DNA of 64,000 bases from Bacteroidota bacterium (GTDB lineage Bacteria > Bacteroidota > Rhodothermia > JANXDC01). Made by a program: the position numbers and the translations under genes. Below are positions 1,851 through 55,863 of the stretch, piece by piece (position 1 is the first letter of the stretch; each line of letters starts with the position of its first letter). The notes below the pieces were generated by a model. That model was given only the letters and a program-made list of their open reading frames with translations. It had not been told where the DNA came from and made no database searches. Where the stretch lies: the NCBI GenBank assembly GCA_025998875.1, contig AP024675.1, forward strand, positions 1,709,549-1,773,548, in the 5' to 3' direction.

Positions 1851-3371
1851 ATGCTGACCGGCTGGGATGTGGCGGTAATCGGGCTCTACTTTCTGGCCTC
1901 AGCGGCGCTGGGCATACGTCTGGCGGGCCGACAGCGCTCGGTAGAAGAGTATTTTCTGGGCGGACGTTCCGTGCCCTGGTGGGCGGTGCTTTTTTCTATT
2001 GTGGCCACGGAGACGAGCGCGCTTACCGTGATCAGCGTGCCGGCGGTAGCCTTTGGAGGTGATCTGACCTTTCTTCAGCTCACCTTTGGGTATCTGCTCG
2101 GGCGTGTCCTGGTCAGCCTGCTGTTCCTTCCCGCCTATTACCAAGGACACCTGGAGACCGCCTATGCCTTTCTGGGCAGGCGATTTGGCGATCGCCTGCG
2201 GGGGGCGACGTCGCTGGTTTTCCTGGCCACGCGCCTGCTTGCCGACGGGGTTCGGCTTTTTGCGGCGGCCATTCCGATCAAGGTCATCTGTGATCAGCTC
2301 GGCGTATCGGTCTCCTATGCGCACGTGATCGCTGCCATCGGGGTGGTGACCGTCTTCTACACCTATCTCGGGGGATTGCGCGCGGTTATCTGGGTCGATG
2401 TGCTCCAGCTGGGCGTATATCTGCTGGGCGCCCTCTGGGCGCTTGTGGTCCTGCTCAAGGGGGTTCCGGTCGACTGGCTACAGCGGGCCGTCGAATCGGG
2501 TAAGCTGCGCCTGATCTATACGGGCCTGGAGCTCGCTCCTCTGGAGTGGATACGGCAGAATTACACCCTGCTTACCGGGTTGCTGGGTGGAGCTGTTTTC
2601 ACCATGGCCTCGCACGGCACCGATCAGCTGATTGTGCAGCGCCTCCTGGCCTGCCGCTCCCTGCGGGCCAGCCAGCGGGCGTTGGTCGGAAGCGGGGTAT
2701 TCGTGATCGGGCAGTTCGCCCTATTTCTGGGTATTGGCCTGTTGCTGTGGGCCTACTACGGGGCTCGCGTGGGCACCTACATGCCATCGGAGATTCTGGC
2801 CCGCATGAGTCTGCAGAGGGCCGATGAAATCTTCCCCCACTTCCTCATCGAGGGCCTTCCCCCGGGTCTGTCCGGTCTTATCCTGGCCGGAATCCTGGCC
2901 GCCGCCATGAGCACGCTGTCGAGCTCGCTCAACGCGCTCTCCTCCTCCACGATCCTGGACATCTACCAGTGCTGGTTTCCGAATCATTACGCCCGAAGGG
3001 ATATGCTCCGTCTGTCGCGGATCATGACGCTCTTCTGGGGCGGGGTGTTCATCGGTTTTGCCATGCTCTTTCGCAGTACGGAAAACCCCGTTGTGGAGCT
3101 GGGGCTAAGCATCGCCAGCTTCACCTACGGAGGTCTGCTGGGGGTTTTTCTGCTGGGCCTCTTCTTTCAGAAGGTCGGCGAGCGGGAGGCGCTGTGGGCC
3201 TTTCTGCTCGCGGTGGCCTGCATGATCGGTTTTATCACGCTGGTGCGCATCGGCTGGCCGTGGTACACGGCCACGGGCGCCCTGCTGACCATAGCGATCG
3301 GACGGTTGCTCTATGGCATACGTTGTTTTCGGGAAAAACCGCTTTCCACGCCTGCGCAGATGGACGGGTAG
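1851..3371 (+). CDS. sodium:solute symporter (SSS family)
   Basis: A 506-aa polytopic membrane protein with about 13 hydrophobic segments. It has the SSS look throughout: an N-terminal WDVAVIGLYFLAS helix, a GRQRSVEEYFLGGRSVPWW loop, SIVATETSALTVISVPA in the second helix region, and a conserved FTMASHGTDQLIVQRLLA stretch near residue 250. The family imports sugars, proline, pantothenate or other organic solutes with Na+; the substrate cannot be read from the sequence. GAGGGGGAG precedes the ATG. The last 59 bases overlap the start of the solute-binding protein gene in another frame, suggesting translational coupling. Confidence 0.88.
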   Translation: MLTGWDVAVIGLYFLASAALGIRLAGRQRSVEEYFLGGRSVPWWAVLFSIVATETSALTVISVPAVAFGGDLTFLQLTFGYLLGRVLVSLLFLPAYYQGHLETAYAFLGRRFGDRLRGATSLVFLATRLLADGVRLFAAAIPIKVICDQLGVSVSYAHVIAAIGVVTVFYTYLGGLRAVIWVDVLQLGVYLLGALWALVVLLKGVPVDWLQRAVESGKLRLIYTGLELAPLEWIRQNYTLLTGLLGGAVFTMASHGTDQLIVQRLLACRSLRASQRALVGSGVFVIGQFALFLGIGLLLWAYYGARVGTYMPSEILARMSLQRADEIFPHFLIEGLPPGLSGLILAGILAAAMSTLSSSLNALSSSTILDIYQCWFPNHYARRDMLRLSRIMTLFWGGVFIGFAMLFRSTENPVVELGLSIASFTYGGLLGVFLLGLFFQKVGEREALWAFLLAVACMIGFITLVRIGWPWYTATGALLTIAIGRLLYGIRCFREKPLSTPAQMDG

Positions 3372-5088
3372 GCTTGCGTTCCTGGGCCTGCTGATGCTCC
3401 TGCCCGGATTGCAGCGGCCTCAGATGGGGGGAGAGCTCATCAAGCACGAGCTCAACGACCCCGATGGGCTGCATCCGTATCTGACCACGGATGCCTCCAC
3501 GCGCTATATGCAACAGCTCATCTTCGATCGGCTCTGCAAGCTTAATCTGCGCACCCTTGAGCTTATGCCCGAGCTGGCCGAGCTACCCATCCCGGAAAAC
3601 GGGCACCGAAGCTATCGGTTTCGTATCCGTCCCGAGGCCCGATGGGCTGATGGCCGGCCCGTGACGGCGGACGATGTGGTCTTTTCCTGGAAGGCGCTCA
3701 TGAACCCATTCGTCGATAGCGCCCCCCTGCGGGCCGAATGTGTCGATATCCTCAAGCCCGAGGTGGTGGGGCCCCATGAGGTGCGCTTCTATGTGCGCCG
3801 GCCTCGGTTCGACAACGTCTACAAGCTCACCTACGCCCTCTATATCCTGCCCAAACACCACTACGATCCGGAGCGGCTCACCGATCGCTATACGGTAGAG
3901 GATCTGGCCCGCTACCACAGCAGCGGTCGGCTGGAGGAGCTGAGCCCGGAGGCGCGGGCCGCCATGGAGGCCTTCGCCCAGCGCTTTCAGGATCCGGCCT
4001 TTCGCTTTGATCCCTCCCGCGTGCTGGGCAGCGGTCCCTACAGACCGGTCGAATGGCGGCGTGGGCAGTGGCTTCTGCTGGTACGCAACCCGCGCTACTG
4101 GCAGGCCAACAGCCGAGAACCGTTTACTGAGGCCTATCCGGATACGATCCGATTCCGGGTGATCCGTGATGTGGAGGCCGCCCTCAACGCCCTGCGAGCC
4201 GGCCAGGTGCACGTGAGCGAGTCCTTTCGTCCCGCGCAGTTCATCTACCAGATGCAGGGGGCGGATTTCGAACGCCGCTTCGCCCGGCATGTGCAGCTAC
4301 AGCCCAGCTTCTACTACATCGCCTGGAATCTGGATCGTCCCTATTTTCGCGATCCCCGCGTGCGTGAGGCCCTTTCTCTGTTGGCCAACCGGGAGCAGAT
4401 GCTCCGCACCGTGTTTTTCGGCCAGGGGCAACCGGTCGTTTCCTTTTACTTCCCCGGACGCCCGGAACATCACCCCGGGCTCAGGCCAGATCCTTATGAT
4501 CCGTCCCGCGCCCGTCGCCTGCTGGCCGAGGCCGGGTGGCGCGATACCAACGGCGACGGGGTACTGGACAAGGACGGAGTCCCGTTTCGTTTTACGCTTT
4601 ATTTCAATCAGGGCAATGAAAACCGCCGACAGGTGGCCCTGATCTGGGCTCAGGCCCTGGCCCGGGTAGGCGTTCGGGCCGTGGTGCAGCCCATCGAATG
4701 GGGGGTATTGCTGGATCGGCTCCGCAGTCGGGACTATGATGCCGCCATCGTGGGGATAGTCTTCGACGCCAACGAGCAGGACTTCTATCCCTACTTCCAC
4801 AGCGCTCAGGCCCAGCTGCGGGGATTCAATTACTCGGGATATCGGGACCCGGAGACGGACCGGCTTCTGGAGCGCATTCCCGCGGAGTTTGACTTCCGGC
4901 GTCGGATCCTCCTGCACCGGGCGCTTCAGGAGCGCCTGGCGGCAAACCGGCCATATCTGTTTCTGTTTGCCGTCGCGCAGCGCTTTGTTTACGATCGCCG
5001 CTGGGCCGGGGTGGTCTTCTATCCTCAGCGGCCGGGGTACTATCTGGGGCAGTGGTATCTGGCGACGGGCATGCGATCGGACTCATAA
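3313..5088 (+). CDS. ABC transporter extracellular solute-binding protein, family 5 (peptide/opine type)
   Basis: A 591-aa exported protein with a basic N-terminus and hydrophobic stretch (RLAFLGLLMLLPG) at about residues 20-32. It then has the SBP_bac_5 fold: a YRFRIRPEARWADGRPVTADDVVFSWKA-type segment (given here from 3602) near residues 97-125, and a GSGPYRPVEWRRGQ motif near 240. Family 5 proteins capture oligopeptides, nickel or other solutes for an ABC importer. No cognate permease or ATPase gene is in the window. The start at 3313 lies inside the symporter gene and has GGACGG upstream. It ends directly before a hairpin whose poly-U lies on the opposite strand. Confidence 0.85.
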   Translation: MAYVVFGKNRFPRLRRWTGRLAFLGLLMLLPGLQRPQMGGELIKHELNDPDGLHPYLTTDASTRYMQQLIFDRLCKLNLRTLELMPELAELPIPENGHRSYRFRIRPEARWADGRPVTADDVVFSWKALMNPFVDSAPLRAECVDILKPEVVGPHEVRFYVRRPRFDNVYKLTYALYILPKHHYDPERLTDRYTVEDLARYHSSGRLEELSPEARAAMEAFAQRFQDPAFRFDPSRVLGSGPYRPVEWRRGQWLLLVRNPRYWQANSREPFTEAYPDTIRFRVIRDVEAALNALRAGQVHVSESFRPAQFIYQMQGADFERRFARHVQLQPSFYYIAWNLDRPYFRDPRVREALSLLANREQMLRTVFFGQGQPVVSFYFPGRPEHHPGLRPDPYDPSRARRLLAEAGWRDTNGDGVLDKDGVPFRFTLYFNQGNENRRQVALIWAQALARVGVRAVVQPIEWGVLLDRLRSRDYDAAIVGIVFDANEQDFYPYFHSAQAQLRGFNYSGYRDPETDRLLERIPAEFDFRRRILLHRALQERLAANRPYLFLFAVAQRFVYDRRWAGVVFYPQRPGYYLGQWYLATGMRSDS

Positions 5089-53245: not shown

Positions 53246-53593
53246 GCGCCCTGGCTGGCGAGGCATCTTGCTCCGTAGGAGCGCGTGGACTCGCCAAAGG
53301 GATCGGCGCCAGCAGTGAAGGGAGAGGCGTTACGGGGCCTCAAATGGAGAGGATTGAGAATCCCTACCAAGCGGTGCCAACTCGAGTTTACACCGCTGAG
53401 CAAGGGGGTTTTTCTCCGATCACATAATGTAGATCCGGACCGCGGGTTCTTGAGCCCGCTACGGGGTTGGTCTACCTTGGGCACGAGCGTTGACGATCGC
53501 TCTTTGACAGTGTGGCCAAAACCCGCCGGGCGCCCACCTCCGCAGGCGTCAACCGGGCCGCGCATGGGCCCATATAGAAAGGAGGGTGCCGAG
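53246..53593. other. gene-free 348-bp region upstream of metK and of the repeat lipoprotein
   Basis: No credible CDS; ORFs covering it are extensions of metK or of the lipoprotein frame. It contains two stem-loops: AGCGGTG/CACCGCT around 53370-53397, followed 12 bp later by five T, and GCGGG/CCCGC around 53443-53459. A promoter for the lipoprotein lies at 53450-53478. I looked for SAM, TPP, FMN and cobalamin riboswitch motifs and found none convincing. Confidence 0.4.
53450..53478 (+). promoter_or_regulatory. candidate promoter of the repeat-lipoprotein gene
   Basis: TTGAGC (53450-53455), 17 bp, TACCTT (53473-53478). This gives a 5' leader of about 110 nt before the ATG at 53594; the leader holds two TTGAC words (53490 and 53503). 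Confidence 0.4.
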
Positions 53594-53815
53594 ATGAAAA
53601 AGCTCGCCATGTTCTGCCTCATGCTGTTTCTGGCCGCTGGTACGGGCACGGTGCTGAGCGGCTGCTCGATGGATCTCTTCAGCGTCCGCGGTGGGGAGAT
53701 GTCTTCTGACCAGGGTGGGGAGATGTCCTCCGATCAAGGTGGGGAGATGTCTTCCGATCAAGGCGGAGAGATGTCTTCCGACCAGGGTGGGGAGATGTCT
53801 TCCGATCAGCGTTGA
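53594..53815 (+). CDS. 73-aa lipoprotein precursor made of five octapeptide repeats
   Basis: Residues 1-24 are a lipoprotein signal peptide ([16 protein letters not shown], lipobox LSGC). The mature chain is Cys, SMDLFSVR, five tandem copies of GGEMSSDQ, and a final Arg. The repeat part is acidic, Gly/Ser-rich and surely unstructured. AAAGGAGGG stands 9 bp before ATG 53594, so it should be well translated. I recognise no family. Tandem identical short units behind a secretion signal recall pheromone or bacteriocin precursors cut into several copies, or a flexible surface spacer. The neighbouring TPR-HTH regulator makes the first reading attractive. The DNA copies differ at synonymous positions, so the peptide is under selection. 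Confidence 0.75.
53690..53809 (+). repeat. five 24-bp tandem repeats inside the mini-lipoprotein gene
   Basis: Five adjacent 24-bp units each encode GGEMSSDQ. Differences between units are third-position changes (TCT/TCC, GAC/GAT, CAG/CAA, GGT/GGC, GGG/GGA). This gives direct repetition in frame, prone to copy-number change by slippage or recombination. Confidence 0.95.
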
Positions 53816-53832
53816 TCAACGCGGGGGTGCGT

Positions 53833-53871
53833 CGGGGAGTCTGGATTTTCCCCGTTTCCGTATTGTATACT
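53833..53871 (+). promoter_or_regulatory. hairpin and promoter between lipoprotein and TPR-HTH gene
   Basis: CGGGGA (53833-53838) can pair with TCCCCG (53849-53854) followed by TTT, a weak terminator. It overlaps a promoter with a good -10 TATACT (53866-53871) and a poor -35 TGGATT 18 bp upstream. A promoter with a weak -35 is the kind that often needs an activator. Confidence 0.4.
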
Positions 53872-53917
53872 TGACAGGCACACACATTAGTAGCGAGAAA
53901 GGAGGTGGGCGCCTCTC

Positions 53918-54967
53918 ATGGGTGCGGGTTCCCCAACGGCCACACTGGACAGCCTGTATCTGGATCAGCTCGCCACACGCGCCGAATCCCTTCCGGAGAC
54001 CCTTCGTCAGCGTCTGCAGGAGGCCAATCGCTGTTATCAGGAAAGCCTTTACGGCAGAGCCGTCGAGCTCTATGAGTCCCTGTTGCAGGAGGACTTGCCC
54101 CCCGAGCTGCGGGCGGATGTGGGGCTACAGCTGGTGGCGGCGCTGAACTGGATCAAAGATGAGCGTGTCTTTGAGCAGCTCGATCGGATAGAGCCTGTCA
54201 CCGAGTTTCAGAAGGCCCTGCTCAGCCTGCGCACGGGCGTGGCGCTTATGGACATCGCCCGGGACTACAAAAGCGCCCTGAGCTGGATCGATCAGGCGGC
54301 CGACCAGTTCGCCGCCCTGGGAGAGAAGGACTGGGAACTGCGGGCGATGAATAACCGGGCCAAGTGCTACCACCAGATGGGCATGTTCGAGGAGGCGCGC
54401 AGGGAACTGCGTACGGTTTATTACATCGCCCGTCGACACGGGCTTCGGGAGCGCATGCTCATCGTCACGCTTAATCTGGGCGTGCTGGCCGAGGACGAGG
54501 GCAACTGGGAGGAGGCTGAGCGCTACTACCGGAAGGCCTACGAATCGGCCCTCGATATGGGCAATCGGCGCCTGCAGGCCCTGTGCCTCTATAACCTGGC
54601 CACCCTGCATCACGATCAGGGCTTCTACGGGCTGGCTCTGGAATATTATGAGCTGGCTTTGGCGCTGTATCGGGAAATGGGGGCTGAGCGGGATATAGAG
54701 GAAAAGACGGCGCGCATGCAGGAGGCCATGCGGGGCCGGGAGCAGGTGCTGGAAAATCTGGCCCGCATGGTCGGTATGATGACCATTCGGGAGCTGCGGC
54801 AGCGGTATATCGCCGGTCTGGTCAAGAGCTTCCTGCGGGTGCCCGGGATCCCGACCCGAGAGAAGCTGGCCGAGCGTATCGGGGTCACCCGGCAGACCAT
54901 CTACAAGAACATTCGGGATGCGATTGAGGAAGGGCTCCTGCCTCGCGAGGAGGCCGGGGACGCCTAA
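53918..54967 (+). CDS. TPR-repeat regulator with C-terminal helix-turn-helix
   Basis: A 349-aa cytoplasmic protein. Residues 25-270 are TPR helices: RCYQESLYGRAVELYESLLQ, RAKCYHQMGMFEEARRELRT, VLAEDEGNWEEAERYYRKAY and TLHHDQGFYGLALEYYELAL. Residues 290-345 form a DNA-binding domain, with the HTH in TREKLAERIGVTRQTIYKNI followed by RDAIEEGLL. TPR domains in RRNPP regulators (Rap, PlcR, NprR) bind short signalling peptides; there the HTH is N-terminal, here C-terminal. AAAGGAGGTG precedes the ATG. Just upstream is the repeat lipoprotein, and panC starts 35 bp downstream, so targets may include its own cluster. Ligand and targets are unknown. Confidence 0.8.
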   Translation: MGAGSPTATLDSLYLDQLATRAESLPETLRQRLQEANRCYQESLYGRAVELYESLLQEDLPPELRADVGLQLVAALNWIKDERVFEQLDRIEPVTEFQKALLSLRTGVALMDIARDYKSALSWIDQAADQFAALGEKDWELRAMNNRAKCYHQMGMFEEARRELRTVYYIARRHGLRERMLIVTLNLGVLAEDEGNWEEAERYYRKAYESALDMGNRRLQALCLYNLATLHHDQGFYGLALEYYELALALYREMGAERDIEEKTARMQEAMRGREQVLENLARMVGMMTIRELRQRYIAGLVKSFLRVPGIPTREKLAERIGVTRQTIYKNIRDAIEEGLLPREEAGDA

Positions 54968-55002: not shown

Positions 55003-55863
55003 TTGGAAATCATCCAGGACATCCGAGAGATGCAGCGCCGTGCCTCGGAACTGCGGCTGCAGGGCCGGCGTATCGCCGTGGTGCCCACGATGGGCGCCTT
55101 CCACGAGGGCCATCTGGCCCTTATGCGCATGGCCCGACAGCGGGCCGACGTGGTCATCGCCACCCTCTTTGTCAATCCGCTCCAGTTCGGACCCAACGAG
55201 GATTATGAGCGATACCCTCGAGACTGGGAGGGGGATCTGCACAAGGCCGATTCGGTAGGCGTCAATATCCTCTTTGCCCCCGCTGTAGAGGCCATGTATC
55301 CGAACGGATACCAGACCTATGTGGTCGTGACCGAGCTGAGCCGTCCTCTGGAGGGGGCCATACGACCGGGGCACTTCCGCGGGGTGACCACTGTGGTGAC
55401 GAAGCTCTTTCATCTGACCTGTCCCCATGTGGCCGTCTTCGGGCAGAAAGACGCCCAACAGGCGCTCATTATCCGGCGCATGGTGCGCGATCTGAACTTC
55501 GATATCGAGGTGCTCATCCATCCGATCGTGCGGGAGCCCGATGGGCTGGCCATGAGCTCCCGGAACGTCTACCTGTCGGCCGAGGAGCGCGCGCAGGCCC
55601 CGGCCCTGTATCGGTCCCTTCGGTGGGCCGAGGAGGCCATCCGTGCCGGGGAACGAAATCCGGAGAAGGTCATTGAAGGGATGCGCCGTATCCTGAGGCG
55701 CGAGGCCCCGCTGGGGCATATCGACTATGTCGCCGTCTGCGATACGGAGACGCTCGATGAGCTCGTGGAGCTCCGACCCGGCCGGGAGGTGCTGGTGGCC
55801 CTGGCCGTGCGTTTTGGCTCGACCCGGCTGCTGGATAATGTGCTTCTGACCGTGCCGGAGTGA
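55003..55863 (+). CDS. panC: pantothenate synthetase
   Basis: A 286-aa enzyme ligating pantoate and beta-alanine. VVPTMGAFHEGHLALMRMAR contains the HxGH nucleotide motif (about residues 27-46), followed by LFVNPLQFGPNEDYERYPRD, HLTCPHVAVFGQKDAQQALI and the KMSKS-like AMSSRNVYLSAEER. TTG 55003 is the start: GGGAGG lies 8 bp upstream and it places the family motif correctly. It is followed 10 bp later by panD, which makes its beta-alanine. Confidence 0.95.
   Translation: MEIIQDIREMQRRASELRLQGRRIAVVPTMGAFHEGHLALMRMARQRADVVIATLFVNPLQFGPNEDYERYPRDWEGDLHKADSVGVNILFAPAVEAMYPNGYQTYVVVTELSRPLEGAIRPGHFRGVTTVVTKLFHLTCPHVAVFGQKDAQQALIIRRMVRDLNFDIEVLIHPIVREPDGLAMSSRNVYLSAEERAQAPALYRSLRWAEEAIRAGERNPEKVIEGMRRILRREAPLGHIDYVAVCDTETLDELVELRPGREVLVALAVRFGSTRLLDNVLLTVPE

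Follow-up and report, generated by a model that had tools for sequence, protein, structure and literature searches.

Intracellular peptide receptors in which a TPR protein senses a short peptide are known from Firmicutes and from mobile elements of these bacteria. Searches for RRNPP systems have been based on a TPR-type receptor of approximately 250–500 aa adjacent to a Sec-exported precursor of 10–100 aa (PMC10075063). In the RRNPPA receptors an N-terminal HTH (or a three-helix bundle) is located before the TPR domain, and multi-copy and SPII precursors occur (6.7% of large propeptides; 211/2,734; PMC9765709). The key peptide-anchoring Asn is N227 in RapF and N225 in RapJ (PMC3601992). The Phr precursor of phage phi3T contains two pseudo-repeats, RRGHTAS and SRGHTS. 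In the enterococcal sex pheromone systems with PrgX/TraA, the pheromone is the end of a signal peptide, and the lipoprotein gene is chromosomal and not linked to the gene of the receptor.

Here we describe a locus in a closed 2.35-Mb genome (G000), which was placed by its relatives in the class containing Rhodothermales and Rubricoccaceae. In the window, i.e., the whole 64,000-nucleotide stretch that was analyzed, a mini-lipoprotein gene (lipA) was found upstream of a gene for a TPR-HTH protein (regulator A). The genus was otherwise represented by one genome, that of a sister species (G001). In line with the genomic definition of RRNPP systems, receptors of 349 and 328 aa with precursors of 73 and 43 aa encoded 102–110 bp upstream were found at two loci in both species. 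As in the RRNPP/RRNPPA systems (Rap, Rgg, NprR, PlcR, PrgX, AimR), the gene of a short precursor, predicted here to be Sec-exported, adjoins that of a TPR protein, the mature peptide would be located at the C-terminus of the precursor, and the TPR groove contains a key Asn (N226 of A aligned with phi3T Rap). The locus differs in that the only HTH-like segment of A is C-terminal (residues 290–337) instead of N-terminal, a peculiarity already pointed out in an earlier sequence-only reading of this DNA and confirmed here. Besides, the precursor gene is located upstream, whereas it is downstream in Bacillales, the host belongs to Rhodothermia and not to Firmicutes, and the pair shows neither a family profile match nor a clear Opp permease. 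Since HTH position, family profile and taxon disagree, the most likely reading is that the pair would work like an RRNPP system without being a member. A lipoprotein precursor as peptide source and a receptor with TPR-like repeats and an HTH are also found in the enterococcal pheromone systems, but here the precursor adjoins the receptor and its tail is the more constrained part. No description of such a pair in Rhodothermota was found in the literature searched, an absence that is weak evidence.

Organization of the lipA locus

The 73-aa lipoprotein precursor with five exact copies of GGEMSSDQ reported in the sequence-only reading was recovered with ORF, lipobox and coordinates unchanged, and the ribosome-binding site reported for lipA was also present, strong and conserved in G001 (Table 1). 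The array was the best repeat detected by Tandem Repeats Finder in the window (period 24, 5.0 copies, score 184). The gap of 102 bp to the regulator gene and the TPR repeats were exactly as previously read; the C-terminal HTH of this protein is likely but weakly scored. Downstream of panC, panD and secA follow on the same strand, and the gene order in G001 is the same as in the window (metK<, lipA>, A>, panC>, panD>, secA>, recN>, cysS>). The panC neighborhood is probably functionally unrelated to the pair. Core repeats of a ribosomal peptide (graspetide-like) were rejected, as neither an ATP-grasp nor another modifying enzyme is encoded by the immediate neighbors.

Table 1. Features of the lipA/regulator A locus (window positions).
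Feature	Position	Strand	Evidence
lipA leader segments complementary to the RBS and first codons of the regulator	53508..53541	+	duplex of 32 pairs, z -4.4, 0/300 shuffles
lipA Shine-Dalgarno (AAAGGAGGG)	53578..53586	+	conserved in G001
lipA, 73-aa mini-lipoprotein precursor	53594..53815	+	ORF, Shine-Dalgarno, lipobox; G001 orthologue 79% identical
lipA lipoprotein signal peptide, 23 codons, Cys next	53594..53662	+	final 8 residues GTGTVLSG identical in G001
Five tandem GGEMSSDQ codon blocks, 24 bp each	53690..53809	+	within-array differences synonymous only
TATACT, candidate -10 (internal promoter of regulator A)	53866..53871	+	block GTATACTT conserved in G001; sigma-70 scan silent
Start codon of regulator A with Shine-Dalgarno and initial codons; complementary to the lipA leader	53901..53947	+	same duplex as lipA leader
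TPR-HTH regulator A, 349 aa	53918..54967	+	TPR_12 E 1e-18; orthologue (G001) 84%, paralogue 40% identical
Six helical-repeat units, residues 27-254	53996..54679	+	AlphaFold model helices; groove Asn N146, N186, N226
C-terminal helix-turn-helix, residues 290-337	54785..54928	+	HTH_11 E 5e-4, below gathering score; family profile A1 built here
panC	55003..55863	+	35 bp after TPR-HTH gene; PF02569 E 5e-104; same order in G001

A second pair in both species

A paralogue of regulator A, regulator B (40%/39% identical), was found at G000:C1:939.8-940.8 kb, and a 43-aa mini-lipoprotein (lipB) is encoded 110 bp upstream of it. The lipB sequence is MRKAFFLALLLVLAAGYVG^CATEAFGPNQEVHQLQGGEDVDDT in G000 and MRKALLLSLLLALAAGYVG^CAVELLGPEQQTHQVRGGDDVDDT in G001; its C-terminus reads QLQGGEDVDDT in the former and QVRGGDDVDDT in the latter and thus contains a single octapeptide with one conservative change between the species. 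GG[ED]DVDDT aligns with GGEM[SA]SDQ at G, G, E/D and D. Both the lipA/A and the lipB/B pair are present in both species of the genus. Locus B is divergent from a gene for a PpiD/SurA-like periplasmic chaperone, and PGI comes after B.

A regex filter for mini-lipoproteins (Shine-Dalgarno, K/R, uncharged h-region, lipobox, 25–120 aa) was run over 183 kb, approximately 167 kb of which came from G000, including 16 loci at which it encodes other TPR_12 proteins. lipA and lipB of both species were the only matches, and no mini-lipoprotein was found near the other TPR_12 genes of G000 at these 16 loci. Directly upstream of lipB, both species contain a further A/B-related TPR protein, from which the HTH has been lost (T; L032:7128-8174, minus strand; G000:C1 approximately 941.1-942.2 kb), which is possibly a Rap-like non-DNA-binding receptor or a decoy.

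Conservation of the octapeptides

The lipA repeat of G001 is GGEMASDQ, also in five copies, with S replaced by A in every one of them. Within the array, the five copies are identical at the protein level and vary at six third positions, and pairwise comparison of the copies gave 28 synonymous and 0 nonsynonymous differences in each of the two species. Between G000 and G001, pN/pS of lipA was 0.07 in the repeats, 0.26 in the linker and 0.42 in the n/h region of the signal peptide; for lipB it was 0.10 in the octapeptide and 0.49 in the linker. In both lipoproteins, constraint on the mature chain falls on the octapeptide. The c-regions of the signal peptides (GTGTVLSG in lipA, LAAGYVG in lipB) showed 0 nonsynonymous changes between the species, with just 3 and 1 synonymous ones, while the h-regions diverge. 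The silent-only variation in the array indicates that the octapeptide is translated and maintained, and the lipA octapeptides are, as judged from codon comparisons, under strong protein-level constraint (purifying selection).

A chance repeat at DNA level is excluded by the silent-only within-array variation and by the recurrence of the five-copy array in G001 with every copy changed. A widespread repeat lipoprotein was likewise rejected, the repeat pattern being missing from 243 other genomes of the class.

Domains and groove of the regulators

The AlphaFold model of regulator A has a mean pLDDT of 79, mostly above 90 to approximately residue 210, 65–87 beyond, and approximately 41–56 in the HTH. 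Despite its Pfam score below cut-off, the HTH region is the most conserved part of the TPR-HTH family, and a C-terminal HTH in regulator A is likely. The inner helices of TPR4–6 showed orthologue identities of 100, 94, and 100% for A and of 100, 94, and 94% for B, compared to 35–41% between the paralogues; the predicted groove is conserved within, and different between, the paralogous receptors. In both species, A and B carry N146, N186, and N226 at intervals of 40 residues; six aligned relatives without lipoprotein have other residues there, except for one Asn in G044. In the alignment with phi3T Rap, which was the reference instead of RapF, N226 of A is matched to the LYNL Asn and falls in the region of the RapF N227/RapJ N225 peptide anchor. 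Asn is frequent at this place in TPR_12 repeats, and the asparagine ladder is therefore suggestive only.

By fold, the model matched LGN/Pins, kinesin light chain and pheromone-bound phi3T Rap. The first two gave the best natural PDB matches in both sequence and fold, and their TPR repeats bind extended peptides; these are, however, eukaryotic scaffolds without an HTH, and the similarity is one of repeat type. No match to an RRNPP family model was seen, the Pfam and NCBIfam matches shown being generic TPR. RapF was matched at E 0.034 only (phmmer), and defence-system models gave only a generic TPR match to the regulator.

Promoter and leader RNA

The promoter placed before the TPR gene in the sequence-only reading stood in part: TATACT is located in a block conserved in G001, but a sigma-70 scan detected no promoter above threshold. 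In addition, the lipA leader is complementary to the start region of the regulator gene, in helices of 10, 7, and 14 pairs in G000 and 9, 10, and 14 pairs in G001 (z -4.4 and -5.6), and 0/300 shuffles reached either value. For this test, short segments, dinucleotide shuffles and a null of 240 random pairs at the same distance were used; the 1% point of the null was -2.9, and one of the 240 pairs was at -4.49. In an earlier test with long segments, the duplex was not special in G000 compared to a sliding null (278/1400). One compensatory change (U-A to C-G) separates the two species; several other pairs differ by one-sided changes with pairing kept, and the middle helix differs in sequence yet pairs. 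The region as a whole folds with far greater stability than its shuffles (z -5.5 and -6.4 in the two species). No leader/start pairing was found for pair B.

As RNA, the leader pairing is predicted to mask the start of the TPR-HTH gene. Because its arms are also DNA inverted repeats flanking lipA, operator sites or gene conversion are candidate readings as well, and as DNA the inverted repeat could represent paired operator sites. SecM-type monitors are similar in that the gene of a small exported protein precedes secA on the same strand and an RNA structure is located at a downstream start codon; in contrast, secA is here four genes downstream, and the predicted RNA structure involves the 5′ leader instead of the ORF end and would cover the start of the TPR-HTH gene. 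A SecM-like arrest was rejected, as no arrest motif was seen.

Distribution of the TPR-HTH family

A profile of the C-terminal part of the TPR-HTH proteins detected the family in 11/245 genomes of the class: the two species of the genus contain two receptors each, plus T as a weak match, and nine further genomes from two other families contain one each. Among 395 genomes sampled across the phylum, no additional genus gave a match. No relatives were present on plasmids and viral contigs, and a mobile origin of the pair was rejected. The search in related genomes proposed in the sequence-only reading gave a divided result: the pair and its paralogue are present in both species of the genus, but no mini-lipoprotein was adjacent in the stretches examined of the nine distant Rhodothermia loci. 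Of the counterevidence named there, a TPR gene rarely next to a repeat peptide was thus observed in part, in these nine relatives; the six of them that were aligned lack the asparagine ladder, though, and therefore probably sense something else.

In G044, the next genes after the TPR-HTH orthologue are the type IX secretion genes porU (peptidase C25) and porV (L034:8014-14628), with PAS and HisKA proteins also among its neighbors. Before the TPR-HTH genes without lipoprotein (L065, L066, L068-L072), a conserved TTAAG...CCGATA element was observed, which resembles a sigma-28-type promoter.

Discussion

We consider the chances about even that lipA and the adjacent TPR-HTH gene form a dedicated ligand/receptor pair, in which the octapeptide is most likely the ligand of the regulator. 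The proposal made from the sequence alone, that peptides from the repeats are sensed by the TPR protein, gained from the paralogous pair, the second species, the purifying selection, the groove conservation, the Rap-type Asn and the RNA link, but not in its re-import step. The precursor would enter the Sec/lipoprotein pathway, and the chain carrying the octapeptide, with five units for A and one for B, would bind extended across the asparagine ladder of TPR 4–6. Binding may alter the contact of the C-terminal HTH with DNA, the probable targets being the promoters of the pair itself. Pairing of leader and start would block receptor translation from the long lipA transcript, and we propose that the receptor level is then set by the internal promoter. 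To reach a cytoplasmic receptor, the peptide would either be released and re-imported, as in quorum sensing, or be sensed on the precursor before export.

Re-import through an oligopeptide permease gained no clear support: with the OppC_N profile, no OppC-type permease above cut-off was detected, and G000 and G001 contain one SBP_bac_5 protein each. Sensing of the unexported precursor is therefore a real alternative, over which re-import gets no clear preference, and this is the weak point of the proposed pair. The only family-5 solute-binding protein gene of G000 is found at 3313-5088 of the window, between a sodium symporter and NAD kinase and without adjacent permease genes.

If the precursor itself is sensed, the regulator might serve as a secretion monitor that binds the octapeptide tail of pre-lipoprotein delayed in the cytoplasm by slow Sec export or lipid modification and adjusts envelope genes. 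Re-import would be unnecessary, which agrees with the lack of an OppC-type permease above cut-off, five copies would raise avidity, and C-terminal octapeptides leave the cytoplasm last. The same-strand run of A with panC, panD and secA, the chaperone next to B and the position of the G044 gene before porU/porV point in this direction, but these neighborhoods may be coincidence, with panC and panD sitting before secA and PGI after B, and no known monitor is built this way; we regard this explanation as unlikely. Still less probable is a signal-peptide pheromone of the enterococcal type, with the c-region, released through signal peptidase II and site-2 protease cleavage, as the ligand and the tail as a spacer. 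The c-regions are kept while the h-regions diverge, and the genome encodes two M50 site-2 proteases; SEC/SPII precursors and Eep processing are also known in RRNPPA (PMC9765709). The few synonymous changes in the c-regions give little power, however, their constraint is partly explained by the lipobox alone, and the stronger, silent-site-tested constraint on the tail is left unexplained.

The two genes may also be unrelated neighbors, the lipoprotein being a surface spacer or a metal-binding or antigenic tail and the TPR-HTH protein regulating something else. Repeat lipoproteins of mycoplasmas have surface roles, TPR-HTH genes without a lipoprotein occur in other families, and synteny is generally conserved; with two species only, co-occurrence of both pairs may reflect one ancestral event, as the order of panC, panD and secA is also kept. 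This reading has difficulty with the same adjacency at a paralogous locus, the rarity of mini-lipoproteins elsewhere in the filtered sequence, the single octapeptide of lipB, which is too short for a spacer, and the complementarity between the lipA leader and the regulator start, and it seems to us rather improbable.

Returning to the ligand/receptor pair, tiny lipoproteins with short acidic octapeptide ends next to a groove regulator look, from their sequences, like an intracellular peptide-sensing switch of the sort so far known from Gram-positives. More tentatively, they may represent a family of peptide-sensing regulators that arose independently in Gram-negative Rhodothermia, with lipoprotein precursors (one with five tandem octapeptides), C-terminal-HTH TPR receptors, two specific duplicated pairs and leader-masked receptor translation. 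A cognate pair in a Gram-negative lineage, if true, raises the question of how the peptide crosses two membranes, or whether export is needed at all; if the ligand is the precursor before export, this would be a new type of secretion monitor. The concerted S to A change in all five repeats is a natural co-variation experiment, and with two paralogous pairs per genome, both species offer a ready test of ligand specificity, GGEMSSDQ vs. GGEDVDDT.
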